Source of the DNA: Sisyra terminalis
Lineage: Eukaryota; Arthropoda; Insecta; Neuroptera; Sisyridae
Direction: 5' to 3'
DNA length: 64,000 nt
Assembly: GCA_958496175.1 (NCBI GenBank)
Contig: OY292278.1
Coordinates: forward strand, 44,764,001-44,828,000
The notes under the pieces were generated by a model. That model saw only the letters and a list, made by a program, of their open reading frames with translations, made no database searches and was not told the origin of the DNA. Positions 10,744-61,653 of the stretch are shown one piece after another (within the stretch, counting starts at the first letter, position 1; every line of letters begins with the position of its first letter). Made by a program: the position numbers and the translations under genes.

Positions 10744-10955
10744 AGATGATAAAATTCAGATCTCAGCTTTTATTAAATAAGAATACAATTCAGGTTGTTT
10801 AAGATCGGTTTTTTTATTTGAACATTAAATTAAAAAAAATCATAGAAGTCAGATGAAGTTTCGATACGTAACGAAACGTAGGTAATTTGAATATAAAAAA
10901 ATATTAAATAAAAAAAAACGATTTTAAACAACCTGAATTGTCTTCTTATTTAAGA
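10744..10955 (+). mobile_element. Family A palindromic element, copy A2
   Basis: This 212-bp copy has a perfect 10-bp target duplication AAATTCTAAT (10734-10743 and 10956-10965). It begins AGATGATAAAATTCAG, the same terminus as A1, A3 and A4, and ends ...GTCTTCTTATTTAAGA like A1. The left arm lacks the hammerhead-like part, so only the right-arm motif (10848-10878, plus strand) remains. Its first core base pair of letters has changed (CAGATGA) and stem II is imperfect. It is a shortened derivative with both original ends. Confidence 0.8.
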
Positions 10956-10965
10956 AAATTCTAAT

Positions 10966-11609
10966 TTAATTTTAGTTCAATTACAAAAAAAAAGAAGCTT
11001 TTTTTTGAAAGAAGTTGCCTTCTTTTTGTCCTGATAAAATTTCAGTTGGCACCCATGACTGTGGTAAAAAGAACATGAAATATGGCTCATATCACGCTTA
11101 AGGTTGCAAAGCTTAGACCATGGATTCCCAACGGGGACGATAAAGCTCTCGACGATACTAGAGCTTTTTAATGCCGTTTTTACTTTTTTTAACGTAAAAA
11201 TTAGTTTTGAAAATATTTTCGAAGAGCTTTTATTAAATATTGACTTACAACTGTTCTAAAATTATAAATAAATAAACTTTAAAAAAAATTAAATTACTTT
11301 TATTAAAAATACTAATTGCTTGCATATATTTTGATCCGCAATTTCTATTAGTTAAGATTGTGAAATATCGATGCAAATGACGTAATCGAACAGAAAAATT
11401 CAAAGGCTTATAATTCTTTTATCAAAAATATCGTATTTTATTTAGTTTTATTGATTTATTCAGTGGAAACCAATTTTAGTCTAGCTATAGGGAAAGGATT
11501 ATGATACAAATTTTTTTACTTGATAGATAAAAAAATAGTTTTTTTGAAGTGTATTGAGTTTGACGATTAAAAGTGAATCTACCATCTCAATTCCAAATGC
11601 AAAAATTCA
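10966..11609. other. Unassigned AT-rich sequence upstream of the mariner fragment
   Basis: No recognisable feature. The N-terminal half of the mariner transposase is expected here, but I cannot find its motifs. Confidence 0.35.
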
Positions 11610-12085
11610 TGGATTAGTCCATAAGAACCATCCACATTGACACTAAAGCAAAATTTTCACGGCCGTAAAGTCATGCATTGTTTCTGGTGCATTTATCAAG
11701 GTGCAGTATATTAAGAAATGTTAAAACCGATTGAAACTATTACTGAATATATTTCCCGATATTTATTGAATCAATTGAGTGATAGATTGTTGCAAAAAAG
11801 ACCAACAATTGTGAGTAACAGGTGCAAAGTTATCCACTTGGATAATAACATTCAGCAATACGTCAAGAGAGTCGTAAAGAACTCAGGGTTACAACTCGAA
11901 TGGGAATAATTATCTGATAATATAGTACCTTCTGATTACCACTTATTAAGAACGATAAAGCATGGCTTGGCCTTCGGTGGCATATGGTTTCGAAATGCTG
12001 AAGAAGTGTTAAAATAGATCGGCATTGTATTCTTCTGACACTTTATCGCGATAGTTTGTAGAAAGTATATTCATTACGATTTATA
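11610..12085 (+). pseudogene. Mariner (Tc1/mariner) transposase, C-terminal fragment
   Basis: Translation from 11610 follows the C-terminal half of mariner transposases. In order it shows a W-x-x-P segment, EPSTLT, an HGRKVMHCFW block, then from 11718 an open stretch containing VIHLDNN (equivalent to the HDNARPH catalytic block, Asp kept). After a stop it continues with VPSDYHLL, which holds the last catalytic Asp, and an EEVLK block followed by YRDSL. In-frame stops interrupt it near 11620, 11709, 11910 and 12017, and the N-terminal DNA-binding half is not seen. It is a dead copy. No terminal repeats were found. DNA-transposon integrase of the DDD type is the family role. Confidence 0.85.
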
Positions 12086-12330
12086 CAATTTTTTTATCAG
12101 TGAAAAATTGATCAGAATACCTGTAAGCACCTAATATATACCAATAAGTGCAAATAAATGACGAAACTATGAAAAGTTTTAATGATTTATACTGAATATC
12201 ATTACGATTGTTGCTATTGGCGTTGTACGATTCACGTAAAAAGCTAAGCCCGCAAAGCACATATTTCACGAAGCTTTCACTCCATAAAGTTAAATCTACC
12301 GAAAAAAATTAAAATTATTATAAAAGAAGT

Positions 12331-12820
12331 CTGTGTATACAATATATGGAATATATTGTGGTCCAATTTATATAGTATAGATTAATATAATAATTTATAA
12401 AAAGCAAACCATAAACATAATTTTGAACAGAAGTTCAAACAAAAATATTCGTGACGTATTGCCCAGATACGTATTTCGATTCCCAAGCAATATTCCTCAG
12501 TAGTCATCAAGTAGTTTGGATCACTCATGAAGATGAAGATCACTCGTGAATCATGAGAATCATGTGAATCATCACAAAGCAGTTACGGAGTGATCCAAAC
12601 TATTTGATGACCACTGAGAAAGATTGCTTGGCAATCGAAATACGTATCTAGATAATACGTCACGAATATTTTTGTTTGAACTTTTGTTCAAAATTATGTT
12701 TATGGTATGATTTTTATATATTATTATATTAAATTATACTACATACATTGGACCGCAATATATTCTACATATTGTATACACAGTATAACTGTTCAAAGGC
12801 AGCGGAAAAATCTTATTTTG
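12331..12820 (+). mobile_element. Family B palindromic element, copy B1
   Basis: This 490-bp element is flanked by ATAAAAGAAGT (12320-12330 and 12821-12831). It starts CTGTGTATACAATATA and ends with a tail present at only one end: after the mirrored CACAG comes TATAACTGTTCAAAG... and finally TCTTATTTTG. The arms are long inverted copies that meet in a CACTCATGAAGATGAAG-type centre. Hammerhead-like motifs lie at 12453-12500 (minus) and 12614-12661 (plus). The asymmetric tail, constant start and 11-13 bp duplication suggest retroposition. Confidence 0.85.
12614..12661 (+). ncRNA. Hammerhead-like motif of family B (B1, right arm)
   Basis: The order is CTGAGAA, then a stem II hairpin GATTGC-TTG-GCAATC, then GAAAT, then a possible stem III hairpin around ACGTAT, then GTC. 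This is the order of a type I hammerhead. However, the core reads CTGAGAA rather than CTGATGA, and two extra bases follow GAA. Stem I pairing is not evident. I treat it as ribozyme-derived, probably inactive as written. Confidence 0.45.
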
Positions 12821-17279: not shown

Positions 17280-17779
17280 CAAAATAAGATATTTTTTTTC
17301 GCTGACTTTGAACAGTTATACTGTGTATACAATATATAGAATATATTGTGGTCCAATTTATGTAGTATAGAGTAATATAATAATATATAAAAATCATTCC
17401 ATAAACATAAATTTAAACAGACGTTCAAACAAAAATATTTGTGACGTATTTGCCAGATACGTATGTCGATTGCCAAGCAATCTTTCTCAGTGGTCATCAA
17501 GTAGTTTGGATTACTCCATAACTGCTTAGTGATTATTCACGAAGCAGATTCATGAATAAATCATCGCAAAGCAGTAATGGAGTAATCCAGACTACTTGAT
17601 GGCCACTGAAGAGGATTGCTTGGTAATCGAAATACGTATCTGGGCAATACGTCACGAATATTTTTGTTTGAACTTCTGTTCAAATTTATGTTTATGATAT
17701 GATTTTTATATATTATTATATTAAATTATACTATATAAATTGGACCGCAATATATTTTATATATTGTACCTATACACAG
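17280..17779 (-). mobile_element. Family B palindromic element, copy B2 (minus orientation)
   Basis: This 500-bp copy lies opposite to B1. Its tail (CAAAATAAGAT...) is on the left and its start (CTGTG on the minus strand) is at 17779. The flanks TTTAAATTATGAT (17267-17279) and TTTCAATTATGAT (17780-17792) match at 12 of 13. The centre is a long palindrome built from GCAGTTA/TAACTGC-type arms around a GAAGCAGATTCATGAA loop. Hammerhead-like motifs are on the minus strand in the left arm and on the plus strand at 17606-17653. Confidence 0.85.
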
Positions 17780-18241
17780 TTTCAATTATGATTTTTTAAA
17801 TGCATCTTTTCCATTTATAGAAAATAAGAGGTCCTTCTCCCCTGAAAATTGATCAGGTGGACAATGATATGTATAACATAGAGGAAGTAATTTTTATATG
17901 ATATAAGCTTCAGATACAATGAAATTTTTGAACGAAAATTTTACGAAAAATAGACGAAAACATTAAATTTTGATTTTTTAATTAGATCTTTGCCATTTAT
18001 AGAAAATTAGAGTTCCCCCCCCCCCCCCAGATAATTGATCAGGTATTTACTCTAACCTTTATATACAAAATCGTTTGTCCTCATTGACTAACTAATGGAT
18101 CAACACAGCTTTAACCAGTGGTTATAAAAAAGTAAAATATTGAGGAAGTATTCTTTATAATATGTAGGATTCTGATATGAAAGAATTTTTGAAAAAAAAT
18201 GCTCGAAAAATTGACGAAAAAATTTAATTTTAACAAACTTT

Positions 18242-18457
18242 AATTGTTTGCAGGAAAGTGGACATAAAAGAAAGTAAATCATTAATAATTAAATCCGCAA
18301 AGTTTCGGTCTTTTGTTATACCTTCATCAGGCTTCTTAATTTACAATATAATACTATGTGTTACAGTAGATGCTGTAAACTAAGAAGCCTGATGTTGTTA
18401 TGTACCTATTAGTATATGGATTTACATCCTTTTATTTCCACTTTCCTGCTAACAATT
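18242..18457. mobile_element. Family E palindromic element with hammerhead-like motif
   Basis: The ends are AATTGTTTGCAGGAAAG (18242-18258) and CTTTCCTGCTAACAATT (18441-18457). The arms are imperfect inverted copies over about 85 bp. The left arm carries, on the minus strand, CTGATGA, an A, GGT...ACC, then GAAAC (18302-18331). The right arm keeps only CCTGATG and fragments of the hairpin (18388-18406). This is a single copy in the window, so its ends are less certain than those of A and B. Confidence 0.6.
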
Positions 18458-18467
18458 CAAAATAATT

Positions 18468-19011
18468 TTTTTAAATAAGATGACAATTCAGGTGGTTTGA
18501 GATCGATTTTTAAATTAATTAAATTTATTATTGCTTGGAAAATTTAAAAAAAAATAGTGTTAAAAAGTTTAAATTGGTGGACCTCTGTTTGAATAACGCG
18601 CGGTTGGATGTTAGTTGGGCTCATTAGGCGGCACTGAATTTACATGCAATGTGTATGGGTAGAGTGTGTAATTTTTTAATTTTTATTTATTTATTGAATT
18701 TAAGTTAAAAACATTTTATTTTTGTGAATCAAGGTATTTTATTCATTAATTTTATTATTATATATTTAATTATTTATAATAATATCTCTTAAAATGTTTG
18801 TCACATTCTGAAATTTTGAGTTAGTTATTATTATTTAATAACAAATATTTTATATTATCTATATTATATGTATATTATTATAGTTTTAAAATTTATGTAT
18901 GATTGACAAATTTTGTAATTATTTTAATTTTTTATAGAAGCCTGATGAAGTTACGATATGTAACGAAACGCAAGTTAAAAAATACAAGCTGAGATCTGAA
19001 TTTTATCATCT
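18468..19011 (-). mobile_element. Family A element with about 400 bp of internal cargo, copy A3
   Basis: The element is flanked by a perfect 13-bp duplication ATTCAAAATAATT (18455-18467 and 19012-19024). It is inserted at the right end of E. Read on the minus strand it begins AGATGATAAAATTCAG like other A copies and ends ...GTCATCTTATTTAAAAA. Unlike A1 and A4 it is not a palindrome. One arm has the hammerhead-like motif (18940-18970, plus strand). The other has only the GACAATTCAGG end, with about 400 bp of unique AT-rich sequence between. It may be the progenitor form or a copy that captured host DNA. Confidence 0.8.
18940..18970 (+). ncRNA. Hammerhead-like motif of family A (A3)
   Basis: The core is CTGATGA, A, stem II GTTAC-GATAT-GTAAC, then GAAACG. 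All conserved core letters are present and stem II is perfect. There is one extra purine between CTGATGA and stem II compared with the minimal hammerhead. No convincing stem III plus cleavage triplet follows at the usual distance. A GTC lies in the family A end about 75 nt downstream in copies A1, A2 and A4. Self-cleavage is untested. Confidence 0.5.
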
Positions 19012-19330
19012 ATTCAAAATAATTATTAAATATTGATTTTTTAATGGAATCTTTGCCATTTATAGAAAATTAGAGCCCTCCCCCTCTTGAGAATTGGTCT
19101 GATTTTTGCTTTAGTTTTTATTTACACAAAACCGTTCATTCTGATTGTCTTACTAATAAACTAGCCCATAGCTTTAACCAGTGGTCAAAGAAATGTAAAA
19201 CATTGAGGAAGTATTATTTATTTTATTGGAAGTTTCCGATACGAAATAATTGTTGAAAAAAATTCCCCTAAAGAGGCCAAAAAGGTGACAAAGTTTTCAT
19301 GGGATAACGTGTACCCTGGACCCTCAATCG

Positions 19331-23702: not shown

Positions 23703-23747
23703 ATTACGACGCGTTTTAACAGTTTTTGGCTGTCATCATCAAGTAAT
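23703..23747 (-). ncRNA. Hammerhead-like motif at the Penelope-like element 3' end
   Basis: On the minus strand, stem I ATTAC/GTAAT encloses TTGATGA, a GACAG-CCAAAAA-CTGTT hairpin, AAAAC, GC and the cleavage triplet GTC. This is the layout of the short-stem-III type I hammerheads described in Penelope-like elements. Two core letters differ from consensus (C to T in CTGATGA, G to A in GAAA), so this copy is probably inactive. It begins 3 nt beyond the stop codon of the endonuclease frame, and an AATAAAG follows. Confidence 0.65.
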
Positions 23748-23749
23748 GA

Positions 23750-24113
23750 TTATTTTGTCAGTTGTAAACAAATTTCATATAGGTTCATTGTTTTATATAG
23801 TTTATCGTTAAGGAATGCTATTTGGATCTATTTTGTGTACTTTGTATATTTCATATTCTTCCAGGGTGTCCATATGTGATCCTTTCTTGCAAATATGTAA
23901 TGGCTTAAAATTTCTTTCGAAGTTTAAGCATTGATGATTTTCGTCATAAAGGTGATTTTTAAAATTTGAAGTTGTAGAAAAGATTATACTGTAACTCACT
24001 TTATGGGAGTAAAATAGTGGAATTAAAATTGGTGGAAAAAGATTTTCCAACCTTCGATTCGTAGGCGATACAATCATAAATGCAAACAGGGAAAGAGAGT
24101 TATTGGACTTCAT
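23750..24113 (-). pseudogene. Penelope-like retroelement, GIY-YIG endonuclease C-terminal part
   Basis: The frame contains SNFKNHLYDENHQC, NFERNFKPLH and a KKGSHMDTLEEYEIYK block, the C-terminal half of the GIY-YIG endonuclease of Penelope-like elements (PLEs). A -1/+1 shift near 23808 is needed to continue to a plausible end (LNDKLYK...LQLTK, stop at 23750-23752). The GIY and YIG half is missing; upstream residues in this frame are unrelated. In PLEs this enzyme nicks the target for reverse transcription. The copy is dead. It lies downstream of a second, partly complementary copy at 24655-25245. Confidence 0.85.
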
Positions 24114-24654
24114 TCAAAGACTTCAAATCGTAAGTCAAAATTTCGCTTTTAAAACAATAAGACCAATGATCGTTGATCGAATTAATGATCAAAATTGGAA
24201 TAAGAAAATAAGTTGCCAAAATAAAACAAAAAAATATTTCTAATTGTTCTCAGTTTACGGATCTTTATTAAGACCGAAGGTTTTAATTGTGCGAAGAAAA
24301 ACAGCCCTTACAAAATCAACGATCTTCATCCTCAAAAGTAAATTTTATATAGAAAAATATTAATTCCGGACTATAATTAAGAGTTATATAGAAAAATTAT
24401 TTAAATAACAATAATTTTCTTTGCGATATATGAATTATAAATCGAACGAAATATCGTTCCGAATGTTCTGCACTCAAAAGTCACTTTAAACGAGAAATAC
24501 TAAGCCTACTTTGTACAAATCAAGGCACTGTAGTTACGAATGGCGCAGGATGCATGGGCCAATCATAACACATCATACAAAGCTCAATCTTTAATTCGAC
24601 CAATCAGTGAATTTGTTACTTTAACTTTATAGATTTTAACCAATGACATTATTC
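24114..24654 (-). other. Possible PLE terminal/promoter region between two endonuclease remnants
   Basis: The tract between the two PLE remnants is non-coding. It contains a GC-richer piece (24470-24630) with repeated CCAAT-like sequence, and could be the 5' terminal repeat or leader of the downstream copy. This is an inference from position only. Confidence 0.25.
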
Positions 24655-25245
24655 TTAGGTGTATATTCCGTATTCTTTGTATGCAGTGGCATAAAATTTC
24701 TTTCAAATTTTAAGCATTGATGATTTTCGGCATAAAGGTGTTTTGTAAAATTTGAAGTTGTTGTTGAATAACGTTTCTTAGGTGTATGTTTCTTATATCT
24801 TGTTTCAAAAGATCTATCAGTTTGGCCAATGTAGAATTTTTCACAGGAACCACATTTAATTTTATATATTCCGGTTTTATTTTTCGTTGAAATTTGGTTG
24901 TTCTCCAATGGTTTAAGAATTTAAATCATGTTGTTGATTGTTGAAAATGGTATATTGATGTTATTTTTCTGTAGGAAGTTGGCGATTGTAAAACTAAATA
25001 TATTATTGAAATTTGCTTTTATATATTTTTTATTTTCTTTTTGTGGAATTGGAAGAATGGATTTTTAAGTAAATTTCAATATTTTTTTGTCTACGATTGA
25101 GCTGTTGTATCCGTTAGTAATGGCTATATGTTTAATTATCTTAAATTCTTCTTCACGAGCTTTGGTAAGCCTTTGGTAAAACAAGACTATTGTAAGTTGC
25201 CATTTTTTGGTTTCTTGGGTGAAATTATGTTTTATGGATGGTTGT
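24655..25245 (-). pseudogene. Penelope-like retroelement, RT-endonuclease linker and GIY-YIG domain
   Basis: The open part (24636-24908) reads GIY at residues 13-15, the PLE-specific pair C19-x2-C22, YIG at 26-28, a conserved Arg at 37, and HLY...ENH plus FERNF near 57-71, then loses the family sequence after PLH. The C-C and later H-H residues match the CCHH insertion that separates PLE endonucleases from other GIY-YIG enzymes. Upstream (24990-25245), frameshifted pieces KMATYNSLV and EEFKIIKHIAITNGY match the linker after the PLE reverse transcriptase. The RT core itself is not recognisable. Confidence 0.85.
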
Positions 25246-26278: not shown

Positions 26279-27426
26279 CTAGTAGTTGCCCGTTGCATTC
26301 GCAACTAAAGGTTTTATGTCAATAAAATGTTTAATATGAGATAATGTACAGTTAATCAACAATCGAAGTTTTAAATTTAATAATCAAAGTGTTGTTAATA
26401 TAAAAAAAAATATCTAAAATTATATTAAGAAATAAAATATAAGTGTTTTTTTTATATCATTTTAATAACAACATTTTAAATAACATCATTTCACTAAATT
26501 AGTATGAAAGTTTAATACTTATGTAGTACTCATACCAAATAGGCGATTTTAAATTTTGGTTCGTTTTTCAACAATCAAATTTTTTTAAATCTATTTAATT
26601 TTATGAATCAATGGTTGTGATCTGGAGTAAGTATATATTCGGCTGAAAAGCATTAAGGTTGCAATTTTTTGCTATATATTTCACAGTCAATTCAAATATA
26701 AAATCTTCGATACTAACTTTTTCTCGGTATTTAGAACAATTTAAAAACCAATTATTGTTATTGAAAATAAATCAAATATTCGAATTTAAGTCCACGCTTT
26801 CCACCTATTTCCAACAATTCTGTATGTACAACGTCCAAATGTGCGAAATTGAATTGCTTTTTAGTCATGTTAACTAACATAAAGCAGGTCATTATTTTTT
26901 TTCGTTTACATTGTATTTTCAAATATAAGTGCACATTTGTGTCGATGAAATTTGGAAAGTGTTTTCCTTATACGATGCAGATATATAATAAGAAAGGGTT
27001 TTTGAAAATTCCTCCCCTAAAAGAGTGAAAAACGACTGGAAAGTTTGTAAGGGATAACGTTTAATAAACAATCGAAATTTCAAATTTAATAATCAATCAA
27101 AGTCCGTTAAAAGCGAGACGTTATTAATGCTTAGTATAAAACAAAGTGGATTTATTATTACAAACAAAAAATTAGGGTTTGCTTACAAATTTACACTCTA
27201 AGTAGATATATCTGAAAAGGTTAAGTTAAGTTTATAAGTGAGCATTATGTTTTTTGGCTTTCACATATTGTAAACCTGAAAATCCGAAATACGTATTCAC
27301 AAATAAATACATTAGTGAGTGAGTATTCGTACCAACGTTTTGAATGCGTAAGTGGAGATAACAGAGTGCATGCGCATAGCCCATTCTGCACGGACGCACG
27401 GAAAGACAGGCAATTTATATATATGA
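26279..27426 (-). mobile_element. Helitron-like element nested in the hAT
   Basis: On the minus strand it starts TCATATATATAAATTGCC, followed by TGTCTTTCCGTGCGTCCG, and ends ...AACGGGCAACTACTAG|T. These match the TC start, CTAG end and CTGTC-rich leader of the element at 3967-5093, and the lengths are similar (1148 and 1127 bp). The base before the start is T instead of the expected A. The interior (26940-27090) contains the same sequence as 19256-19365. No replicase is encoded. Confidence 0.5.
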
Positions 27427-40562: not shown

Positions 40563-40633
40563 TTCGTGATTCACAAAAATAAAATATTTTTTTGAATTTA
40601 AATTGAAAATATTTTATTTTTGTGAATCAAGAA

Positions 40634-40664: not shown

Positions 40665-40925
40665 TTGAATCATAACTTGGCAAGCGAATAATTCGTATGG
40701 GGCAGTTCCCTCTTTGGTCAAAAATGTTTTCAAGTTTCCTTAAAGGCTTTTTTTTAAGTCTCTAGACCAGTGGTTCTTAAAATCAATTGAGCTCTGAAAC
40801 CACCTAATAAAAATTTCCAATCTCGGGACCCACCTCGAAACGCTAATTGAATAATAAAAATATTAAATAAAAAAACCGATTTTAAACCACCTGAATTGTC
40901 TTCTTATTTAAAAAAAAAAAAAAAA

Positions 40926-43712: not shown

Positions 43713-43719
43713 TATTTTC

Positions 43720-44140
43720 CAGGCTGAAAATCGCGTTTTTTCCTCACCGTATTGATAAAAAGCTTGTCTGAGATCAATTTTAGAAAAAAAAAATTCCCAT
43801 TCTTTCATATTATGTTTATTTTCGATGACATCTACATCTTTCCTAATTGTTATCACACTACTTGGAAATTGAAAATTTTTGGAATTATTTCCAAGTTTCC
43901 TTTCCCTTCGAATTAATCGAAATTTTGGCAAATTTTTTTGCAAAATCAAAATTTAAGGAAAGGAAAATCGTGAAATTTTATTGGAACAAACTAAAAGTCA
44001 GGAAATTTGGCAAAAATTTTGAAAATTTTTAATTTTATTGTGGTTTGATAACAATCAGGAAAGATGTAGATGTTATCAAAATTAAATATAGTATGAAATT
44101 GACCTGAGACAAGTTTGTTATCAATAAGGTTAGGGAAAAA
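43720..44140 (-). pseudogene. Ty3/Gypsy-like RT fragment present as an inverted pair
   Basis: On the minus strand, within the frame 43653-43949, residues 54-76 include FSKIDLRQAFYQ followed by KTRFSAWK. This resembles the RT segment (FSKIDLRxAYHQI...KTAFS) of LTR retroelements. The same sequence recurs inverted on the plus strand at 44043-44140 with stop codons in the matching frame (IDLRQVCYQ, then GKT). The copies form arms of about 100 bp around a spacer of about 170 bp. The fragment is too short for firm family placement and far from functional. Confidence 0.5.
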
Positions 44141-45003
44141 CCTGAGTTTCTGCCAGGAAAATCAAGAAATTTATGTTAAAAAAATAACTGTACATTTTGT
44201 ATTTCTACGTTGTTTATTTAAGATTAAAAAAAAAACAAAATTGTAATAATTTTCCTTAATATATGATCCTTAATCCATTTCAAATTCAAAAATCAAGAAG
44301 TTCGAGATATACGATCAAATATAGCAAGAATAATACAAAATTTTATGTAGAAAATCACCACAATAATTCGAAAAAAAATGCCGTTTGAACGTCCTATTGT
44401 GCACTAGAAGATATATTTTGATCTATCATTAATTTGCAAAAATCGATCTTTTCTTTATTACAAGTGTATACCCAGTTTAATTTGAGATTTTCAACAATCT
44501 ATTATTGTAAAGAAACATTATGAAGAAAAGAAAAAGATGATTTTTTTTCTGAAATTTATTACAATACGAACTATATCGATTGTCATTCCCACTCTATATG
44601 TTATCGGAACTTTAAAGCTTTCTAATTGATAAAAATAAACAAAACTATAAAGTTCAATTCTTATCCACCATATTTCTTAGTCCCTTTTGATATATTAAGC
44701 TTTAATTTCATGTTATCGACCACTGGAAATCCTTTTTAATTTGTGATTTTCGATCATGTATCAGGTATTATAAAGAGACGTAATATAAAAAAAAATCATC
44801 ATTCTAATGAAGGATATCGACAATTCTTAAAAATCAGAAGAGTTGGTGGATTTTTTTTTCTGATTTTTTTTTTGTAAAATAAAAACTATATCGATTATGC
44901 CTCCCACTCTATATGTTACCGGGGCTTTAAAGCTTTCCAATTGATAAAAAAATCAAGTCCAAGGTACTATGAATCGGATTTACCGTCTAGACTGAGTAGG
45001 TTG
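44141..45003 (+). repeat. Degenerate two-unit tandem repeat, period about 315 bp
   Basis: ACTATATCGATTRTSMYTCCCACTCTATATGTTA, followed by GGRRCTTTAAAGCTTTCYAATTGATAAAAA, occurs near 44569 and 44884. Similar poly-T/A-rich sequence precedes each. The first third of this stretch (44141-44400) has no recognised feature. Confidence 0.6.
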
Positions 45004-45277: not shown

Positions 45278-45582
45278 AGAATATATTGCGGTCCAGTTTA
45301 TGTAGTAAAATTTAATATAATAATATATAAAAATCATACCATAAACATAAATGTGAACAGAAGTTCAAACAAAAATATTCGTGACGTATTGCCGAGATAC
45401 GTATTTCGATCACCAAGCAATCCTCTTCAGTGGTCATCAATCTGTTCAAATTTATGTTTATGGTATGATTTTTATATATTATTATATTAAATTATACTAC
45501 ATAAATTGGACCGCAATATATTCTATATATTGTATACACAGTAAAACTGTTCAAAGTCAGCGAAAAAATCTTATTTTGATCC
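45278..45582 (+). mobile_element. Family B element, 5'-truncated and internally deleted, copy B3
   Basis: The copy begins at AGAATATATTGCGG, about 17 nt inside the normal CTGTGTATAC start. It keeps the full one-sided tail (...TCTTATTTTGATCC) and is flanked by TTACTAATAT (45268-45277 and 45583-45592). The left arm is present up to CAGTGGTCATCAA and then joins the outer part of the right arm, so only the minus-strand hammerhead-like motif (45383-45430) remains. 5' truncation with an intact tail and a target duplication is a signature of target-primed reverse transcription. Confidence 0.8.
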
Positions 45583-45592: not shown

Positions 45593-46840
45593 TAGAAGTA
45601 TGCCTTTGTCGTTAATTCTATATAGCCTATAGTTTTTTAAAGGCCAATCCTTTTTTTTAAGGAAATTTAGCCTTCCCCATTTTAATATCCTCAAGGTCCT
45701 CATATTCGTCCATTTTTAAACCATTGTGAAACCAATAGCTAAGAAAAGTATATATCTTAAGGTAGTTATTTTTATTACTTTTTGAACCAATAAAGTTCCA
45801 ATAAAAAAATTTGGGGTCTAAAATATTAAAAAAATTAGTCAAGGTCTTTTAATAGGTTTATTCGATCGATTTTGAAATTTTTAATTGGTTGTTCTATGTA
45901 TTTTTCACAATTTTATCCGAAATAGTTTTAAAGCAAAATTTCATCCAGGCCAAAACAATTTGGAATGATATTTTTGCCGTCTTTACCCTTACAAATGTGG
46001 GGACAACAGGTGTTTGTAGAGATTGCCTCATAAATTCTGCCATTAAGTCATAATTTGATATATATATGTATAATTTTTAGGGTCATTAACATATACGAGA
46101 AACGTTGAGATAAGCAAAAGATAAAAAATCTGATTAAGTAGTTGTCCAACATTAAAACACTGTACTGTTTTTTTTTCTTCTTAAAACTTTAAAACACTGT
46201 GGAGGATAAGTATTGGGAGGATTTTTTTAATTACTAACGGTATTTAGGCAGAATTTGTTTCTAAAATTTATCTACTTTTTGAGGATCAAACAACACTAAT
46301 GTAGTTAAAATTTACGGGCCAATATTAGTCTAAATACCAATTTCCATATTTCTATCTTCTCTAAAAAATTTCATCCCCTATTTCTTGTCCAACTTTTAGA
46401 GCAAACTTTCTAACTGTTTTCCTACTGCACATTTATGATGTTTTATAATATATACTAATGAAATCTTCTGTAAAATTTTATACTTATAGATCCATCAGTT
46501 TATGCTGTGGCTTGTTTGTCAATCAACATCAAAAGCTTTGTCATATGAAGGGTTGTTTTTATGGTGAATTTATTGTTATTTTGTAAATTAAAAATTTCTG
46601 TTGTTTATAATATTTTGGTGTTTCAATATTAAAAAGTAAAGCTTTTGTAAACTAATTTTAAGAAAAATTTATCGATTTTTTATTTATGAAAAATGCTTTC
46701 TAAATGTACACCCTCGACTTCTTCATACTATTGGCGGTACGAAGCCAAAACTTTGATCAATTCTATAAAAATAAAATCTTAAAAAAATTGGTTTTTCTTA
46801 TGATATTTCTCAATTTTAAAGCACCAGTACTGCTTGGTGA
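45593..46840. other. Unassigned AT-rich sequence
   Basis: No feature recognised. Confidence 0.4.
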
Positions 46841-47160
46841 TTACTTATACAGTTTGCTTGGCAATCAAAATACGTATCTTTGGTCATAAAACAGTAATTT
46901 CGTCTATAACATGGTAAGATTATTTATGCGTTATAGGAGCATTCTCGCATAACAAAGGTTGACGAATGATTCACGTTTAACTTTTCTTGATAACTAAATC
47001 GTATATTAAGGAATTAATTAAAATAAAATTAGGAACATTTTAAATCAAAAACTTATAGAACGTGAGAAATACTCGTATTGTATGAGGGAAAACATGTGTT
47101 ACACGAGAGATTTGAAATCACGTTATATAAAAACGCGTTATTAGAGTATCATGTTATAGA
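46841..47160 (+). repeat. Diverged family-B-related repeat (B-prime), copy 1
   Basis: GCTTGGCAATCAAAATACGTATC followed by TTTGGTCATAA resembles the stem II/core part of family B. The sequence that follows (CTCGCATAAC, AACTTTTCTTGATAAC) matches 49876-50100 instead. It is a related but distinct repeat. The GAAA of the ribozyme-like core has become AAAA. Confidence 0.4.
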
Positions 47161-49865: not shown

Positions 49866-50110
49866 GAAATTTTTAGCCACTGATGAAGTATGCTTGGTAA
49901 TCGAAATGCTTGGTATCTTTTGTCATAATACGAAAGATTAGTTCCATGTTAGAAAAAAACATGTTGTACGAATATTCTCATATAACGCGCCACTATGATC
50001 CCATATAACGCGTTATGTACAAGTGATTAAGTTAAACTTTTCTCGTTAAAGAAAGAATAAATCGATTATCGCGAAAAAACTGCTATAAACGAAATATGAG
50101 CGTTGTATGA
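49866..50110 (+). repeat. Diverged family-B-related repeat (B-prime), copy 2, with hammerhead-like motif
   Basis: CACTGATGAAGTATGC-TTG-GTAATCGAAATGC reproduces the order CTGATGA, hairpin, GAAA, but with a weakened stem II. The following sequence pairs with copy 1 at 46841-47160 (TGTCATAA, CTCATATAACGCG, AACTTTTCTCG). No inverted partner is seen. Confidence 0.4.
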
Positions 50111-53208: not shown

Positions 53209-54004
53209 TAGGGTGATTTTTTTTTTGGTCCTATCGTGAAATTTTGTTGGAAATACCAAAATAAAATTCCCTAAAAGTTTGAGCCCTTAATATTAATTTT
53301 AAGTCCTCGACCAAGACGTGTAAAGATTTCCCATTGAAAATACACGGAAACTCTGATTTTTTATTTTTAAGTTTCTATATCTCAGCGGCATTTCATGGGA
53401 TCGCTTTTACCGAAGATGGTTTTTTCTCAGAATTAAACGCTCTACAAAAGTGCCCATAGCGACAAAGTCCAACTCACACCGGTGAGGTAGTATGGGCCAC
53501 TGAACCTGATTTTTCCATAAAATTCGCGTTTTTTTTGCATTTATCTCGTAAATAACAAGAGCTACGGAAAAATTATAAATAAAAAACTTGTAGAGAATTT
53601 GATTTCCTACAAAAAAGTTCCTGTAGACCAAATCGCGAATATCAATTTTAAACGAGATATTAAGCCTTGAATTTTATGATAAAATCAGGTTCAGTACTAC
53701 CCGTCCCGTACTACCTCACCGGTGTGAGTTACGACTTTGTCGCAATGGGCACTTTTGTAGAGCGTTTAATTCTGAGAAAAAACCATCTTCGGTAAAAGCT
53801 ATCCCATGAAATGCCGCTGAGATATAGAAATTTAAAAATAAAAAATCAGATTTTCCGTGTATTTTCAATGGGAAATCTTTACACGTCTTGGACGAGGACT
53901 TAAAATTAATATTCAGGGCTCAAACTTTCAGAGAATTTTTTTTTTGGTATTTCCAACAAAATTTCACGATGGTACCAAAAAAAAAGTCAAAAAGAAAATA
54001 ACCT
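53209..54004. mobile_element. Family H long hairpin element, copy H3
   Basis: Inverted arms (about 53209-53590 and 53630-54004) flank a short centre. GATTCTATAT lies on both sides (53199-53208 and 54005-54014). The exact target-duplication length is ambiguous between 8 and 10 bp. The arms hold GTTTGAGCCCTTAATATTAATTTTAAG and a CTCTACAAAAGTGCCCAT block, plus a GTAGTA/TACTAC...CACACCGGTGAGGTAGT segment unique to this copy. Terminal TAGGGTGA differs from the TAGACTG of other members. No coding capacity. Confidence 0.75.
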
Positions 54005-54092: not shown

Positions 54093-55142
54093 TAGACTGA
54101 TTCAAAAAAATTGATGATTTTTTTTTTTTTAATTATATCGAAAATATTGTTGGGAATGACAAAAAAAAATCCTGTGAAAGTTTAAGCTCTTAATATTAAT
54201 ATTAAGAGGTGCCGCATCGCAAATTTCGATTTTCCATTTAAATAACATAGGAACAATATTCTCTTGCACTTTGGCATTTTATAGCTCACGTTTGTGACAA
54301 TAATTCGGAATGATCAAGGTATATTCTTGTAGAAAATTGAACGATCTACAAAAAAGGTTTCTTAAAAGTTTTAAATATATTTATTCGTTCAAAAGTTATT
54401 CGAGGTCAAAGTTGAACTAAAAAGAAATTTTAAGATTTTTTCAATTTTTTGACGCAACCATCAATTTTAGGAGAAAATTTTATAGGACATTTTTTGTAGA
54501 GCACTTTGTTTTCTATAACTTATCTCTATAAAAGTTTTTGATATTTTTCACAGGTCCTAAGTAATTTAATTAAAATAAAAAAGTAATTTTTATGTTAAAA
54601 ATATAATAATTCAGGGAATATTATTAATTTAAAACATTAAAATTACGAATATTTTCAGTTTAATGCAAATAACCTAGGACCTGTGAAAAATATCAAAAAC
54701 TTTTGCAGAGATAAGTTATAGGAAAAAAAGTGCTCTACAAAAAATATCGTATAAAATTTTCTCATAAAATTTATGGTTCAGTCAAAAAATTGAAAAAATA
54801 TTAAAATTTCTCTTTAGTTCAACTTTGACCTCGAATAACTTTTGATGGAATAAATATATCAAAAACTTGTACAAGACCTTTTTTGTAGATCATTCAATTT
54901 TCTATAAGAATATACCTTGGTCATTCCGAAATATTGTCACCAACGTGACCTATAAAATTCTAAAGTGCAAGAGAATATTGTTCCCATGTTAGTTAAATGG
55001 AAAATCGAAATTTGCGATGCGACACCTCCTAATATTAATATTAAGAGCTTAAACTTTCACAGGATTTTTTTTTGGTCATACCCAGCAATATTTTCGATAT
55101 AATTAAGAAAAAGAAAACATCATTTTTTTTTGAATCTGTCTA
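54093..55142. mobile_element. Family H long hairpin element, copy H4
   Basis: The ends are TAGACTGATTCAAAAAA and TTTTGAATCTGTCTA. The arms are about 54093-54570 and 54660-55142, around a centre of about 90 bp rich in TTAAAT. The left arm is very similar to the solo arm H2 at 9186. The class blocks are GCTCTTAATATTAATATT and GATCTACAAAAAAGGTTTCTTA. It begins only about 90 bp after H3. Confidence 0.85.
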
Positions 55143-56682: not shown

Positions 56683-56994
56683 CCATAAGGAAACCATTAA
56701 ATAACTACGTCGAACAATTTATAAAATTTGTTGTAGTTGTAAATTTATAAGACTTATAAGATTTTCACGTCTTTCCCCCCCATATAACGTAACAATAACG
56801 TTTTAATAAGACTCGGCTTTATAACGTTATCCTTAAGCATTTTTTATTTTTCGGGTAATACTTTCAAGAAAATTAAAATGCCCAGCGATCGAGGAAATCA
56901 AGAAATCGGATACAAAATCTGGAAAATTTAAAAGATATATCAGGATGTGGTAGACCAAATTAGCAGTGTTTTACTTCATTTATTCCAATTGTAA

Positions 56995-57026
56995 CGTTTC
57001 GTTGGTGTTATTCCAACTTCATCAGG
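56995..57026 (-). ncRNA. Hammerhead-like motif, family C left arm
   Basis: On the minus strand the core is CTGATGA, A, stem II GTTGG-AATAACA-CCAAC, then GAAACGTT. Core letters are intact, stem II is 5 bp and perfect, and there is one extra A before stem II. Confidence 0.5.
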
Positions 57027-57259
57027 CAACTTGTAAATATTTTGATTTTTTTTTTTTGGTTGTAACTAGCAATAAGCAACTATAGGTTAATTTTAATTGC
57101 TGTCAATTGTAATTTTATAGAGATCTATTAATATTAAGAATGTTTTAGCCATAACCACTGGTAATTGACATGCCAATACTTAATTTCACCAACAAGTCTG
57201 GCATATGAATTTGTTATAAATCATGGGACTACTGTGTTTTTATTTAATATTTACAAATT

Positions 57260-57292
57260 CCCTGAAGAAGTTGGAATAACACCAACGAAACG
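57260..57292 (+). ncRNA. Hammerhead-like motif, family C right arm
   Basis: This is the mirror copy with CTGAAGA in place of CTGATGA, stem II GTTGG/CCAAC and GAAACGTTG. The single core change would be expected to reduce activity. Confidence 0.45.
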
Positions 57293-57357
57293 TTGCAATT
57301 GGAATAAATGAAGTAAAACACTGCTAATTTGTTTGGTCTACCACATCCTGACATATC

Positions 57358-57778
57358 ATTTACATTATACATGGATTTAGACCTGAAAGAACGGAAATCT
57401 GGGAAGTTTTAATTTATTTAAAATCTGTCTAGTTTTTAGTTTTGAGAATATGTAGACGTACATAAGCATTATTTTGTTATGAGATCTAACAATAACTTTA
57501 AAATCTCTAGTCGAAAAGTTTTACACCGGAAAAAAGTGAATTTTCATGTAGAAAGTCATGGAATTGGTGTTAAAGAAAAGGCTGGGCAACCTGTTCCAGA
57601 TTTAACTTCTTAACATCACCACACCATATAGCAGAGGTCGAAGCCCATATTCTAGGATTTTAATCGAATGGCCCGCAATATATATATTTGACGGTAAATT
57701 TATTGTGGCCAACTACTAATAACTAGTAGCTTCCCGTGAAATATCCACAGCCAATACTGACAAATGGTAAAAATTGGC
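57358..57778. other. Unassigned spacer between families C and D
   Basis: It contains a hAT-like CAGAGGTCGAAGCCC at 57632 without a partner. At about 57718-57740 it has ACTAGTAGCTTCCCG, which on the minus strand resembles the Helitron-like 3' end found at 26279. Both are fragments. Confidence 0.35.
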
Positions 57779-57838
57779 ATTTAATTGTGGGCAATAAGGA
57801 CGAAGCTTCTTATGGAATCTTATTTATTTTTTCGTCAA

Positions 57839-57870
57839 CGTTTCGTCAGTCATTCCTGACTTCTTCAGGG
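57839..57870 (-). ncRNA. Hammerhead-like motif, family D left arm
   Basis: On the minus strand the core is CTGAAGA, A, stem II GTCAG-GAATGA-CTGAC, then GAAACGTTG. Stem II is perfect. The core has A instead of T at one position. Confidence 0.45.
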
Positions 57871-58102
57871 CTCTATAATGAAAATACATAACATTTAAAA
57901 ATAGCGACAACTATTGTCAAAACTATAAATAAATAAATTACAATTCATAAGTCTTAGTCTATATAAATCTTAGTTAATGAATGTGAAATCTAACCAAAAA
58001 ATAGTTAAATTTCAATCCCATTATTTAAATACTGACCAAAATTTAAAAATTACTCCACAAATGTCTTAAAAATATTTTTTTTAAAATATTTTCATTATAG
58101 AG

Positions 58103-58134
58103 CCCTGAAGAAGTCAGGAATAACTGACGAAACG
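58103..58134 (+). ncRNA. Hammerhead-like motif, family D right arm
   Basis: The core is CTGAAGA, A, GTCAG-GAATAA-CTGAC, then GAAACGTTGG. It is the mirror image of the left arm, with a single loop difference. Confidence 0.45.
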
Positions 58135-58194
58135 TTGGCGAAAAAATAAATAAGATTCTACAAGTTGCTTCGTCCTTATTGCCCACAATTTAAT

Positions 58195-59671
58195 TATTAT
58201 ATTTAAAAAGACAAGGACTTAAACAACATGGATTAAGTAATAAGAGTACAAGTAATCCAAACACAAGTGGTAGTTACACTGATTTATGACATAGGGATTT
58301 TTACGGTCAATAACCTTTTTTCGGTTACGCAAAATTAGCGACGAACTCTAGCCAACAATTATTATGATTTTTTACTAATGTGAAATAAATTAGCTGAACT
58401 AGGCATTTTTTTTTCGATTTTTCGTGTGATTTTTCCAAATCCTGGTAACCAAATTGTTGGAATTGTTACCAAGAAAATATAGTAATTTGGGGACTCAAAA
58501 AGATAGCGAGTTTGTTACGTCTTATTTCACGTTTTCTTATTGTATGTATGTATGTGTTGTATTACGAAGAAAAAATACAGCAAATGTAACGGTAATTTTC
58601 AACAATGAGGCAACTTAAATTGTTCCCGGTTGGTGTTTTTCAAATGAATTTGAGGTCTTTGTACTATGGCGGCCGTTGAAAATGTGTGATTAATTTACTT
58701 GAGACTATTTTTTGCCTACAACTCCTATTGTGTATTATATGATTAAAAGAGAACATAAGTATCTAATGCGTTATATGGTTTCCATTTATTGAAGTATTCC
58801 AAAGATTTCGACGATTTTTAAGTTATCCTTCCTCTAATTAATCTATTTTTGGATCATCTATTCTTTTTCTTGAATCTTGGCATTACTATTTAAAGTATTG
58901 CAAATTGCAAGATTTAAATTTTTCTCCTCCCCTTTAAATCGTTGATTGTTTATTCATTTCGATTTCTATGATGATTTATTACAATATGTGACTAACTATT
59001 TAAAAGGGCAGTGGACTCAAAAAAAAAAAAAAAAAATCGTATGGATTTTCCAAAGCCCTCAATTTTGACTTTCAACTTACCACCCTCTCGTGAAAAGAAG
59101 TTGAACTTAAAATATATTTTTTCCTGATTCTTTTTCTACCTTTTTTGTGATCTATAAAAATAGCAATTTAAAAATCTTTTTTACCTTTAAAGGGTCCCAA
59201 GTTGTTCTAGAATAATAAGTAAATATGGTTATTAAAAAGATGAAAAAATTTGATCTTTTAATATGAAAACTTTAAGGGTTCTGGTTCATGACGTCATTAG
59301 TAAATTGGTTTTTTAAGGGTACCTCAGAAGCAATACTTGGTTCACGTTAACAAAGCTAGATACTAAACGGGTATTAGGGGTAATTAAATATAGTTTTTCC
59401 CTACTATCTAAGATTTAATGTCTTGTACAATATTCCAGTACGGTTTTTCTATATTTTCATAAAAATAAAAATTTAAATTTTCGCCTATTTAATGCAAGAG
59501 TCGATGCACAATTGGTAGATTTCCATTTTTTGCAAAAATCATTTAAAAAAAAATTCAAGTTTTCTAGTTTCAAGAGCTTTTGTTTTAGTTTCTGGTCTTA
59601 AAAGATATGGCTCTTGGGGGCTGTTTATTGGGGAAAAAAAAAAAATGTTGTATTTTCAACAATTTTTTTTC
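58195..59671. other. Unassigned AT-rich sequence
   Basis: There is a short TATG repeat at 58541-58554 and long homopolymers near 59020. No feature recognised. Confidence 0.4.
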
Positions 59672-59699
59672 CATATAAACTTTTTACTTTCATAAACAT

Positions 59700-60446
59700 T
59701 AGGCTGGGCCAAAAAATTCAACAATTTTTTTTTTTTGTTAAAGATATATGAAAAATATTATTCAGAGTGACAAAAAATAAAATACTGTGATATTTTGAGC
59801 TCTTAATATTGATACTAAGAGGTCTATCATCGCAATTTTCGATTTTTCAATCCAAAACATTTTTTTAGCTCAAAATTTTTGAAACTCACACTGAAAGAAT
59901 TAAACAACATATGTAGCATTTTTTGATAAATTCATTTTATTTTAATTTTCTCAAGATCATAGTTGAATAATTCGGCTTCAATAAATTTGAGAGAAGTAAA
60001 TTTATCAAAAAATGCTACGAGATCATTTTTGTAGAGCATTTTATTTCCTTCAAGAATATATAAAAAAAAATGTTTTAAATGATGATTCTTTCATTAGGTA
60101 CAAAATTCCAAAGTTAAAAAATCAAATCAGAAAAATAAGTTAATGTTCCAAACTTGATTTTAAAAAAACGGTTGATCTCACGAAAATTTACAATGAAACA
60201 TTTTTGTAGAACATTTAATATTCTTCAGGAATATATGTTGTTTAGTTTTTAGAGTGTAATGGTTCAAAAATTTTGAGCAAAAAATACGCTTTAGATTGAA
60301 AAATCGAAAATTGCGATGATAGACCTCTTAGTAACAAGATTAAGAGCTGAAAATATCACAATATTTTATTTTTTGTCATTCTAAATAATATTATTGATAT
60401 ATATCTTTAACAAAAAAAAAAATGTTGAATTTTTTGGCCCAGTCTA
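59700..60446. mobile_element. Family H long hairpin element, copy H5
   Basis: The ends are TAGGCTGGGCCAAAAAATTC and its near-complement ending in GGCCCAGTCTA. It is flanked by a perfect 8-bp duplication ATAAACAT (59692-59699 and 60447-60454). The uninterrupted site TATCATAAACATACATATTT is present in unit 2 near 60890, confirming the limits. The arms are about 350 bp with TTGAGCTCTTAATATTGATACTAAG and GTAGAGCATTTTATTTCC blocks. No coding capacity. Confidence 0.9.
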
Positions 60447-61174
60447 ATAAACATACACATTTAACAATGAATTTTTGAGGGGACATGTCCCAATTGGGCC
60501 CAATGAGGGCTCAATGTATACCTTGGACATTCTCAAAGTAATATCTAGTCGGGTACTCGGATCAACTTGATAATTTTGGACAATATTTTAAAGATGTTGT
60601 AGTAACTAATAAGACTATAAAAAAGTCGATTTTTTGAAGCCCTGAACCATATATAACCCCTTAATCTAACTGTCCCACTTCTGGCTATTATGGTACACTA
60701 TAAATTTTTGGTTCATAAAACCAATGGGATTTATTTTTTTAAATCCATAGTTGAATTTCATTTGATTGAACAAAGATGCCTATCGTATTTTTCTTAAACT
60801 TTTCTTTGGAAAACCACCCCAAAACTTGCTTATTTATCTATCATTCCTAGCAATAAGTTTGTGTATATTTTATTTATACTTTTTACTATCATAAACATAC
60901 ATATTTAACAAAGAATTTTTGAGGGGGCATGCCCCATTTGGGCCCAATGAGGGCCCAATGCATATCTTAGGCATTCCCAAACTAATTTCTAGTCGGATAC
61001 TCGGATCAACTTGAAAATTTAAGACAATTTTCTAGAGATGTTGCAGTAATTAATAAGACAAAAAGTCGATTTTTTGAAGCCGTGAACCATATATAACCCC
61101 TTAATCTAACTATCCCACTTCTGGCAAATTATAGTACACTATAAAGTGTTTATTCATAAAACCAATGAGATTTA

Positions 61175-61653
61175 CTGTGTATACAATATAGAGAATATAT
61201 TGCGGTCCAATTTATGTAAGATAATTTAATATAATAATATATCAAAATCATACCATAAACAGAAATTTGAATAGAAGTTCAAACAAAAATATTTGTGACG
61301 TATTGCCCAGATACGTATTTCGACTGTCAAGCAATCTTCCTCAGTAGTTTGAATCACTCCGTAACTGCTTTGTGATTATTCACGAAGCAGATTCATGAAT
61401 AAATCATCACAAAGCAGTTACGGAGTGATCCAAACTACCTGATGACCACTGAGGAAGATTGCTTGGCAATCGACATACGTATCTGGGCAATACGTCACGA
61501 ATATTTTTGTTTGAACTTCTGTTCAAATTTATGTTTAATGTATGATTCAATATATTATTATATTAAACTATACTACATAAATTGGACCGCAATATATTCT
61601 ATATATTGTATTCACAGTATAACTGTTCAAAGTCAGCATAAAAATCTTATTTA
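61175..61653 (+). mobile_element. Family B palindromic element, copy B4
   Basis: The element begins CTGTGTATACAATATA like B1 and B2. It has the one-sided tail ending ...AAAATCTTATTTA and is flanked by AATGAGATTTA (61164-61174) and AATGGGATTTA (61654-61664). Unit 1 of the surrounding duplication holds the single, empty site AATGGGATTTA near 60723. The centre is a palindrome around CCGTAACTGCTTTGTGAT arms. Hammerhead-like motifs lie on the minus strand near 61299-61345 and on the plus strand at 61449-61496. Confidence 0.9.
61449..61496 (+). ncRNA. Hammerhead-like motif of family B (B4, right arm)
   Basis: The order is CTGAGGA, A, stem II GATTGC-TTG-GCAATC, GACAT, hairpin ACGTAT-CTGGGCA-ATACGT, then C. 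The GAAA of other B copies is GACA here. The second hairpin sits where stem III of a type I hammerhead would be, and ends in the GTC expected at the cleavage site. Confidence 0.45.

Follow-up and report, generated by a model that had tools for sequence, protein, structure and literature searches.

Palindromic elements with hammerhead-like motifs in the window

The window, a 64,000-nt stretch of Sisyra terminalis contig OY292278.1, holds ten small elements of five families (A to E) that carry hammerhead-like motifs, together with a relic of a Penelope-like element (PLE). A loose hammerhead-like pattern matches 17 times in the window versus 3.3 expected, and the strict CTGANGA-hairpin-GAAA motif with a stem II of at least five pairs occurs 10 times, versus a mean of 0.02 and a maximum of one in any of 300 shuffles. 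Three strict outward motif pairs (A3, C and D) compare with none in the 300 shuffles, and the excess of inverted pairs over shuffled controls anticipated by the original prediction is therefore present within the window.

All four family B copies have a one-sided tail, and the arms are inverted head-to-head. B1 (12333–12820, plus strand) lies within the 13-bp target duplication ATAAAAGAAGTCT and contains a left motif with an imperfect stem II (12474–12500, minus) and a right motif with a mutated G8 (12614–12640, plus). B2 (17280–17779, minus; tail on the left; 13-bp duplication with one mismatch) has two core changes in its left motif (17464–17490, minus) and a right motif at 17606–17632 (plus). 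B3 (45278–45578, plus; 14-bp duplication with one mismatch) is 5′-truncated and internally deleted, and retains a motif at 45404–45430 (minus). B4 (61175–61653, plus; 11-bp duplication with one mismatch) carries motifs at 61318–61344 (minus) and 61449–61475 (plus), the latter with GACA replacing GAAA. The B pairs are not strict pairs because each has one mutated or imperfect motif.

Family A is structurally heterogeneous. A1 (10744–10955, minus) is palindromic, with its tail on the left, at the minus-sense 3′ end, a core-mutated motif at 10850–10876 (plus) and the target duplication AAATTCTAAT at 10734–10743 and 10956–10965. A2 (18468–19011, plus), flanked by the 13-bp duplication ATTCAAAATAATT (18455–18467 and 19012–19024), bears a putative 204-nt GT-AG intron (18734–18937, plus) directly upstream of its hammerhead-like motif (18942–18968, plus), in which the stem III stretch is mutated; this intron is missing from A3, and a similar sequence occurs in locus L018. 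A3 (40428–40911, minus) is a palindrome of two intronless arms with the tail on the left, motifs at 40534–40560 (minus) and 40636–40662 (plus) and an insertion of ~170 bp in the right arm (40666–40841); a clear target duplication was not found around it.

The C palindrome (56930–57394, plus) has its tail on the right, motifs at 56997–57025 (minus) and 57262–57290 (plus), and a 15-bp target duplication with two mismatches (56915–56929 and 57395–57409), recovered once the element end had been corrected. Its one-sided tail was recognized by eye, and also from the duplications, in the window copy and in L067. The D palindrome (57787–58187, plus; 8-bp duplication ATTTAATT) carries motifs at 57841–57868 (minus) and 58105–58132 (plus), and both arms have TTTCATTATAG, possibly the 3′ end of an intron, ahead of the motif. 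The E palindrome (18239–18460, plus), for which no significant target duplication was found, has one recognizable motif (18303–18330, minus).

The inverted arms of the window palindromes proved genuine on checking. Strict motifs in both arms occur in A3, C and D; the A2 motif at 18942 sits in a copy that is not palindromic over it, just one arm of A1 shows a recognizable motif, the second motif and the centre are gone from B3, and the right arm of E is degenerate. Two further matches, at 34560 and 41970, fall outside the strict set, and no palindrome was found around a motif at 49880.

A predicted minimal hammerhead with an extra residue

Judged from their sequences, the motifs are predicted to be hammerheads of the minimal, dimer type that carry an additional residue at position 10. 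Parsing 21 chosen copies bore out the description of the motif as hammerhead-like, as the core, stems I and II and the NUH triplet can be read in most of them; stems I and III, which had been left open, are likewise readable in most copies. The core residues C3-U4-G5-A6-N7-G8-A9 and G12-A13-A14 are intact in 17/21 copies (one change each in C_L067, B1R and B4R, two in B2L) and the NUH triplet is readable in 20/21. Stem I is paired at 88/126 positions, with all three inner pairs formed in 15 of the 21 copies, and pairs best inside its own family, a level reached by 2/720 permutations. A stem III closed within a single molecule is absent: each molecule offers a self-complementary stretch of 4, 6 or 8 nt, intact in 18/21 copies, which differs by lineage (ACGT, ACGCGT or ATACGTAT). 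Cleavage would probably occur as a dimer, because this stretch is all that each molecule contributes to stem III.

Across 18 copies, those within each family being related, 93% of stem II cells pair (65% when shuffled), with 25 double-sided changes (10 shuffled) and a covariation score of 0.76 (0.25 shuffled); none of these three values was equalled in 500 shuffles. Two coarser measures were unexceptional, namely pairs with a double change (240/500 shuffles) and further pair types (35/500). Stem II pairing thus persists across families of differing sequence, as originally proposed, and the lack of covariation that had been named as counting against the proposal did not occur.

Minimal PLE hammerheads have reportedly been described by Cervera and de la Pena (2014) and by Lunse, Weinberg and Breaker (2017). 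As presented in PMC6155905 and PMC6466107, such motifs share with ours a type I layout, a vestigial or missing stem III, association with PLEs and a proposed activity as dimers, whereas a lineage-variable stem III stretch and a residue between A9 and stem II, found in 21/21 parsed copies, distinguish the motifs described here, type I having no residue at that site. This residue is mostly A, but G in B2R and in B3L; the PLE copies of the genome have T there. The original prediction did not assume activity on account of this residue. An identical additional A10, between A9 and G10.1, is present in the plus-strand hammerhead of a viroid rather than a retroelement, chrysanthemum chlorotic mottle viroid, with A10U reported as faster and A10G and A10C as poor (PMC3705267). 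By this analogy, the extra residue alone does not exclude activity of the predicted hammerhead.

The Rfam hammerhead models, suggested as a check in the original prediction, matched nothing in the window, either at gathering or in a weak scan. This is weak counter-evidence because clean PLE copies are also without a match. The same silence in both sets would suit a conserved hairpin that serves protein binding or RT priming and is no ribozyme, as would the extra position-10 residue, the very weak stem III, the four changed cores and the Anolis PLE hammerhead, which PMC11167929 describes as dispensable for insertion in vitro and as cutting only with protein added. We think this rather unlikely, since the lineages jointly preserve the core residues, the NUH triplet and stems I and II, and minimal hammerheads are reported in PMC6155905 from all available PLE sequences.

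The same motif in PLEs of the genome

A PLE GIY-YIG endonuclease relic occupies 24636–24920 (minus) of the window, and a hammerhead-like motif (23704–23742, minus) lies downstream of a PLE-like C-terminus at 23803–23980. The relic has 150 scored PLE-like matches in the genome, from 2118 candidates. Three PLE ORFs chosen for their length (420, 465 and 427 aa) match RVT_1 at E about 1e-11, and the one ORF compared with telomerase RT structures matched at E 1e-4; the combination of a TERT-related RT with a GIY-YIG endonuclease was found just in the lineage to which the window relic and L021/L022/L024 belong.

In 17 of 20 PLE loci, hand-picked down the list of GIY-YIG matches, a hammerhead of the same design follows ~150 nt after the endonuclease match (the misses are L038, L040 and L041); the motif scan found none in L021, which has the longest open frame. 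Some PLE copies have the palindromic form too: L011, L012, L016 and L022 contain outward hammerhead pairs in arms of 446–627 nt that are 99–100% complementary. Such pairs occur in 2 loci of the 20-locus sample, and inverted arms near the endonuclease in five (L032, L035 and L044 head-to-head, L026 and L028 tail-to-tail). Eleven neighbouring pairs among the 150 GIY-YIG matches are no more than 5 kb apart, 9 of them head-to-head, 1 convergent and 1 tandem. Family D is connected to PLEs by L071, where a D-type motif lies downstream of a second PLE GIY-YIG ORF that Pfam did not call; an endonuclease ORF was thus seen beside D in 1/3 stretches, and no PLE ORF beside A or C in two A and four C stretches (nine stretches in total). 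For A, B, C and E, we infer a PLE origin.

Insertion anatomy and orientation

The outward arrangement repeats beyond the window, as had been claimed: among the matches listed, every one of the 33 adjacent arm pairs of A, C and D faces outward, with gaps of -1 to 1812 nt, and the palindrome centres of these families vary from copy to copy. None of the 33 listed pairs is tandem, which sets the elements apart from the metazoan retrozymes of PMC7229834, described as tandem repeats with canonical hammerheads and loop contacts; small size, non-autonomy, type I hammerheads and proposed mobilization by PLEs are shared features.

Inverted arms, a ~30-nt tail on one side in families A, B and C, and target duplications of 8–15 bp give the palindromes a PLE-type insertion anatomy. 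The duplications reach P < 0.04 in 7/10 window elements, A3, C and E being the misses, and were found in 9/11 family A loci tested, a count taken with no null and including one simple repeat. Palindromic shape and high copy number could also denote MITEs, TIR DNA transposons moved by a transposase with the hammerhead inside the inverted repeat. We give this very little credence: the duplications vary in length, the ends are made asymmetric by an extra tail, B3 is truncated yet lies inside a duplication, family A occurs with and without its intron, and PLE copies can show the same form.

The palindromes are very probably ORF-less, inverted head-to-head pLTRs of several PLE lineages, with a predicted minimal hammerhead in each arm. 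Families A to E are probably not independent small palindromic designs, as first thought, given their PLE anatomy and the occurrence of outward pairs of the same motif in PLE copies that have ORFs for RT and GIY-YIG. Nor is the head-to-head arrangement undescribed: for the GIY-YIG PLE families of Adineta vaga, PMC3846280 reports inverted head-to-head pLTRs with a 31-bp tail on one of them, short target duplications, palindromes at the inverted junction, and introns. Our elements differ from those described there in being mostly ORF-less and numerous, in that both arms can be intronless and in the hammerhead motifs of the arms, a word absent from the main text of PMC3846280. With the architecture already known for PLEs, the newer elements are the ORF-less multi-lineage form and the doubly intronless palindromes.

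Arm relationships and the copying template

Of 22 family A loci, 16 are palindromic and 6 are not palindromic within the stretch fetched; the tail lies on one side in 15 of the 16, on neither in 1 and on both in 0. Both arms are intronless in 11/11 A loci in which both motifs were found, the query itself having selected for one arm only. In 12 copies, arm identity is 96.1% within a copy versus 94.1–94.7% between copies, a likeness that supports de novo formation of the A palindromes; against this, the other arm of the same copy is the closest or equal closest relative in just 4/12. In family B, the arms do not point to de novo formation (identity 0.906 within versus 0.909–0.912 between copies).

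The B values, the one layout and tail common to all four B copies, and the closer match of B2L to B3L (92.5%) than to B2R (86.6%) would be expected of self-propagating palindromes, in which transcription and copying treat the inverted pair as one unit, comparable to a small retrozyme with rod-like RNA, and the arms are co-inherited. Such inheritance appears improbable, as A, C and D centres vary, same-side A arms are no nearer to each other than cross-side arms, and splicing of a palindrome transcript could affect a single arm, whereas the intron is missing from both arms in A.

A stronger contender, though still unlikely, is fold-back, whereby the first cDNA on one RNA turns back and copies itself into the inverted arm. 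Self-priming is the preference published in PMC3846280, where it is discussed on antisense RNA of PLEs, and it would explain the near-perfect arms of some PLE copies and the greater likeness of A arms within copies. Complete copying should, however, place a tail on both sides, and an antisense template would retain introns, neither of which agrees with the family A loci.

A model for palindrome formation

The palindromes were probably built by target-primed copying of spliced sense RNA from two sides; for this reading, we infer splicing as the cause of intronless arms, two-sided priming, mobilization in trans and hammerhead cleavage. Transcription of the element would proceed outward, and in family A splicing would remove the intron that lies directly before the hammerhead, as the intron-bearing and intronless copies suggest. 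An AT-rich target would be nicked on its two strands, with a stagger of 8–15 nt, by a PLE reverse transcriptase and GIY-YIG endonuclease working in trans, and each cut end would prime cDNA on sense RNA, with the ~30-nt tail included at one start and left out at the other. Both cDNAs would extend inward and be joined at the points where synthesis ends, producing a head-to-head palindrome whose centre varies, with a tail on one side only and a duplicated target; since each arm copies the 3′ region of the element in the sense direction, its hammerhead would read outward. Multimeric or read-through transcripts would be the substrates of the predicted ribozyme, which would probably act as a dimer. 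Fully independent priming of both ends does not predict exactly one tail, and this counts against the scheme; two intronless A arms could also come from a source element already intronless.

More tentatively, the palindromes may be the normal PLE product, arising afresh at each insertion as ORF-less head-to-head elements because both strands are cut and spliced sense RNAs are copied inward from both cuts, with the ten-inserted, dimer-only hammerhead as the standard PLE ribozyme of this host, selected across lineages. We hold this broader view to be possible rather than probable.

The Discussion of PMC3846280 excludes neither an antisense nor an unspliced sense transcript as the PLE copying template. 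That family A, which includes intron-bearing copies as well, has palindromes lacking the intron in both arms points to spliced sense RNA as the template, and the sequence of copying steps is constrained by the outward pairs, the variable centres and the one-sided tails. For testing a PLE copying model, the matches listed already supply dozens of natural products from this genome, and the paired arms provide covariation for a hammerhead variant missed here by the Rfam models. For the Anolis PLE PAc, PMC11167929 describes a hammerhead in the pLTR-ORF region, internal RT starts that bracket the tail and starts on both target strands; that element differs in being described as tandem repeats with the hammerhead at the ORF start.

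Hammerhead-like motifs in the palindromes

The window is AT-rich, has no open reading frame (ORF) of at least 150 aa from a start codon and contains remnants, a hAT dimerisation domain among them. The original prediction placed outward-facing CTGANGA–hairpin–GAAA motifs in the arms of five palindromic families (A–E), and these motifs are real: the window holds 17 loose matches against 3.3 expected. Ten motifs with a paired stem II of at least five pairs were found against 0.02 expected in 300 dinucleotide shuffles, and three strict outward pairs against none. On these counts we reject a chance origin. The proposed conservation of stem II as RNA structure is supported by covariation across 18 copies of all families, with 93% of cells paired and a score of 0.76, neither attained in 500 shuffles; two coarser covariation measures on the same copies fell inside the shuffled range. 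A looser pattern run over the whole assembly (376.6 Mb in 11 contigs, including the window) gave 129 matches versus 64 with a reversed control and was too unspecific for use.

A parse of 21 copies, selected from the window and from loci fetched elsewhere in the genome (numbered L), gives a more complete hammerhead than first described. The order is stem I, CTGANGA, one extra residue, stem II, GAA, a self-complementary stretch, H and stem I. The stretch in the stem III position is ACGT in families A, C and D, ACGCGT in the Penelope-like elements (PLEs) of this genome and ATACGTAT in B. It is wholly self-complementary in 18 of the 21 copies, the exceptions being the right arm of the A-type copy at L024, A2 and the left arm of E. 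Since stem III would consist of so short a self-complementary stretch, good pairing would be possible only between two molecules or two units. The NUH rule holds in all copies except A2 (20/21), with the stretch ending in U followed by A, C or U. Stem I is paired at 88 of 126 positions and pairs better with the 3' strands of its own family than with those of other families, the observed sum being attained by 2 of 720 permutations; it is weak in A2, D, E and the left arm of B4. Overall, 17 of the 21 copies have an unaltered hammerhead core.

The extra residue before stem II is A in 17 of the 21 copies, G in one (right arm of B2) and T in three PLE copies. A viroid precedent exists: PMC3705267 reports that an extra A10 moderately reduces trans-cleavage, that A10U increases it and that A10G and A10C perform poorly. 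Rfam gave no hammerhead match in the window, even in a weak scan, nor in six fetched loci. Five of these loci carry PLE or A-type motifs, so we do not weigh the missing match in the window against a hammerhead. Plant and animal microRNA families appeared in the weak scan below their cut-offs and were rejected; they coincide with the long hairpins formed by A3, B1 and one further inverted repeat. A box C/D snoRNA and a CRISPR-like repeat were other readings considered, on the sequence letters alone. The predicted hammerhead would presumably trim read-through or multimeric RNA. For the Anolis system, PMC11167929 describes a hammerhead that is dispensable for insertion and cuts only with protein.

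Lone B-like sequences lie outside palindromes at 49880-49906, with intact CTGATGA and GAAA, and at 46829-46880. At about position 266 of the fetched locus L003, a motif of the same type, with a longer loop and with GAAACGTTGC, apparently represents a further family.

Relationship to Penelope-like elements

A relic of the GIY-YIG endonuclease domain of PLEs lies at 24636-24920 on the minus strand of the window, as a weak match under the curated cut-off. It has 150 scored matches in the genome, of 2118 candidates; a homologue search with a 94-aa GIY-YIG piece found nothing. Three ORFs chosen for length (420, 465 and 427 aa) contain a reverse transcriptase (RT) domain and end in this GIY-YIG domain. 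The one tested matches telomerase RT structures (E 1e-4), a relationship expected of PLEs according to PMC3846280. Of 20 loci picked down the match list, 17 carry a hammerhead of like design some 150 nt beyond the endonuclease match; none was found after the endonuclease in L038, L040 and L041.

Outward motif pairs are present in four loci (L011, L012, L016 and L022), where the arms measure 446-627 nt and show 99-100% complementarity. L016 and L024 have target duplications and a tail, identified by eye, on the right side only; a motif scan of L021 found none. Within the 20 sampled PLE loci, inverted arms occur near the endonuclease in five, three of them head-to-head (L032, L035 and L044) and two tail-to-tail (L026 and L028); outward hammerhead pairs occur in two. 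Outward motif pairs are thus not the rule in PLE copies. The 150 endonuclease matches include 11 adjacent pairs within 5 kb, 9 of them head-to-head. The tail-to-tail copies slightly lower our confidence: that the palindromes are ORF-less inverted pairs of PLE terminal repeats (pLTRs) from several lineages, with outward predicted hammerheads, is still probable. A wider reading, in which PLE machinery regularly yields such palindromes anew at each insertion and the hammerhead with its extra residue is the usual PLE ribozyme of this host, is rather unlikely.

At L071, a second GIY-YIG ORF (40% identical), in which Pfam did not call the domain, is followed downstream by family D motifs.

PLEs are already known to have inverted head-to-head pLTRs and to carry minimal hammerheads. 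Our literature search found no precedent for outward hammerhead palindromes that are numerous and ORF-less, occur in several lineages within a single genome, lack introns in both arms and have a constant extra residue; part of this may stand in the two primary papers on PLE hammerheads (Cervera and de la Pena 2014; Lunse et al. 2017).

Several loci show other inverted arrangements. The tail-to-tail inversions, the reverse of the head-to-head order, span 221 nt at 99% in L026 and 498 nt at 90% in L028. A palindromic insertion separates the PLE endonuclease ORF from the D-type hammerhead at about 560-840 of L071. Positions 1697-10000 of L023 form a large inverted repeat (arms of 2085 nt and 649 nt, 100%) that holds two PLE copies and other retroelement-like ORFs, possibly a recent duplication or an assembly effect.

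Probable repeated formation and insertion anatomy

Adjacent pairs within 2.5 kb among the matches listed for A (51), C (48) and D (45), for which 40 of 257, 569 and 1269 candidates, respectively, were scored, are outward in 33 of 33 cases. Their gaps range from -1 to 1812 nt and differ between copies, which suggests that palindromes formed many times over.

All four B copies have inverted arms, a one-ended tail of ~35 nt and duplications of 11-14 bp; in B3 the other end is truncated, inside its duplication. Target duplications measure 13 bp in A2, 10 bp in A1, 8 bp in D and, for C with the end taken to include the tail, 15 bp with 2 mismatches; none showed up in A3 or E. We fetched 22 A loci from the 51 listed matches and detected arms by local alignment, self-BLAST having missed most of them. 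Sixteen are palindromic: 15 of these have a tail (roughly 30 nt) on one side, one has no tail, and none has two. Duplications of 10-15 bp occur in 9 of the 11 A loci tested, one being a simple repeat, a count without a null. The variable target duplications and the one-sided tail led us to reject a MITE origin.

At L067 (C1:1356500-1358750), ~1.8 kb without a PLE match lies between two inverted C-type pLTRs, which have a single tail and a target duplication of 12 bp (1 mismatch). This interior contains an open frame resembling that at 26647-26877 of the window and looks like captured DNA moved between pLTRs.

Origin of the second arm

Family A gives clues to how the second arm arose. A2 contains a 204-nt GT-AG stretch, the presumed intron, whose 3' end adjoins the AAGC opening stem I; L018 has a similar stretch, and it is precisely absent from A3 and the L024 copy. 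The second A arm is intronless in 11 of 11 loci with both motifs found, the genome query having been an intronless A arm, which selects the state of one arm and leaves the other unselected. Once a palindrome is complete, splicing of a transcript that runs through it could affect one arm only. The template of the second arm was therefore most likely spliced sense RNA or cDNA made from it; alternatively, the source already lacked the intron. In the D copies examined here, TTTCATTATAG still precedes the motif on either arm, so not every lineage was spliced there.

Arm identities in A are 96.1% within a copy versus 94.1-94.7% between copies, based on 12 copies: the 10 of 16 palindromic loci with long arms (L045, L049, L054, L055, L057 and L061 were left out), L024 and A3. 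Arms on the same side are no more alike than arms on opposite sides, and in only 4 of the 12 copies does the copy's own other arm rank first, or tie for first, in similarity. Fold-back self-priming, discussed in PMC3846280, would make the inverted arm from the first and accounts for this likeness of arms, but it predicts two tails; we consider it rather unlikely. The B arms show no within-copy signal like that of A, and comparing them did not discriminate between the models.

Two-sided priming, in which sense RNAs are copied from both ends of the target and the two cDNAs are joined centrally, is in our estimate about an even prospect. It would produce the head-to-head order, unequal arms, variable centre, intronless arms and one-sided tail; alone, it leaves the near constancy of the single tail and the tail-to-tail copies unexplained. 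For a PLE in vitro system, PMC11167929 reports that the protein cleaves and extends both target strands and that reverse transcription begins at internal sites of the RNA that bracket the tail.

Other inverted repeats in the window

Long palindromes without a hammerhead motif occur at 53214-53989, 54118-55117 and 59698-60448; by eye, their ends resemble ordinary terminal inverted repeats. Nested inverted repeats at 42431-44377 (arms of 128, 109 and 99 nt) enclose an open frame at 43653-43952 that appears Gypsy RT-like by eye and has no match in Pfam. The right arm of A3 carries an insertion at 40666-40841 with CGAAACG on both sides, the inside of which looks by eye like a hAT-type non-autonomous element.
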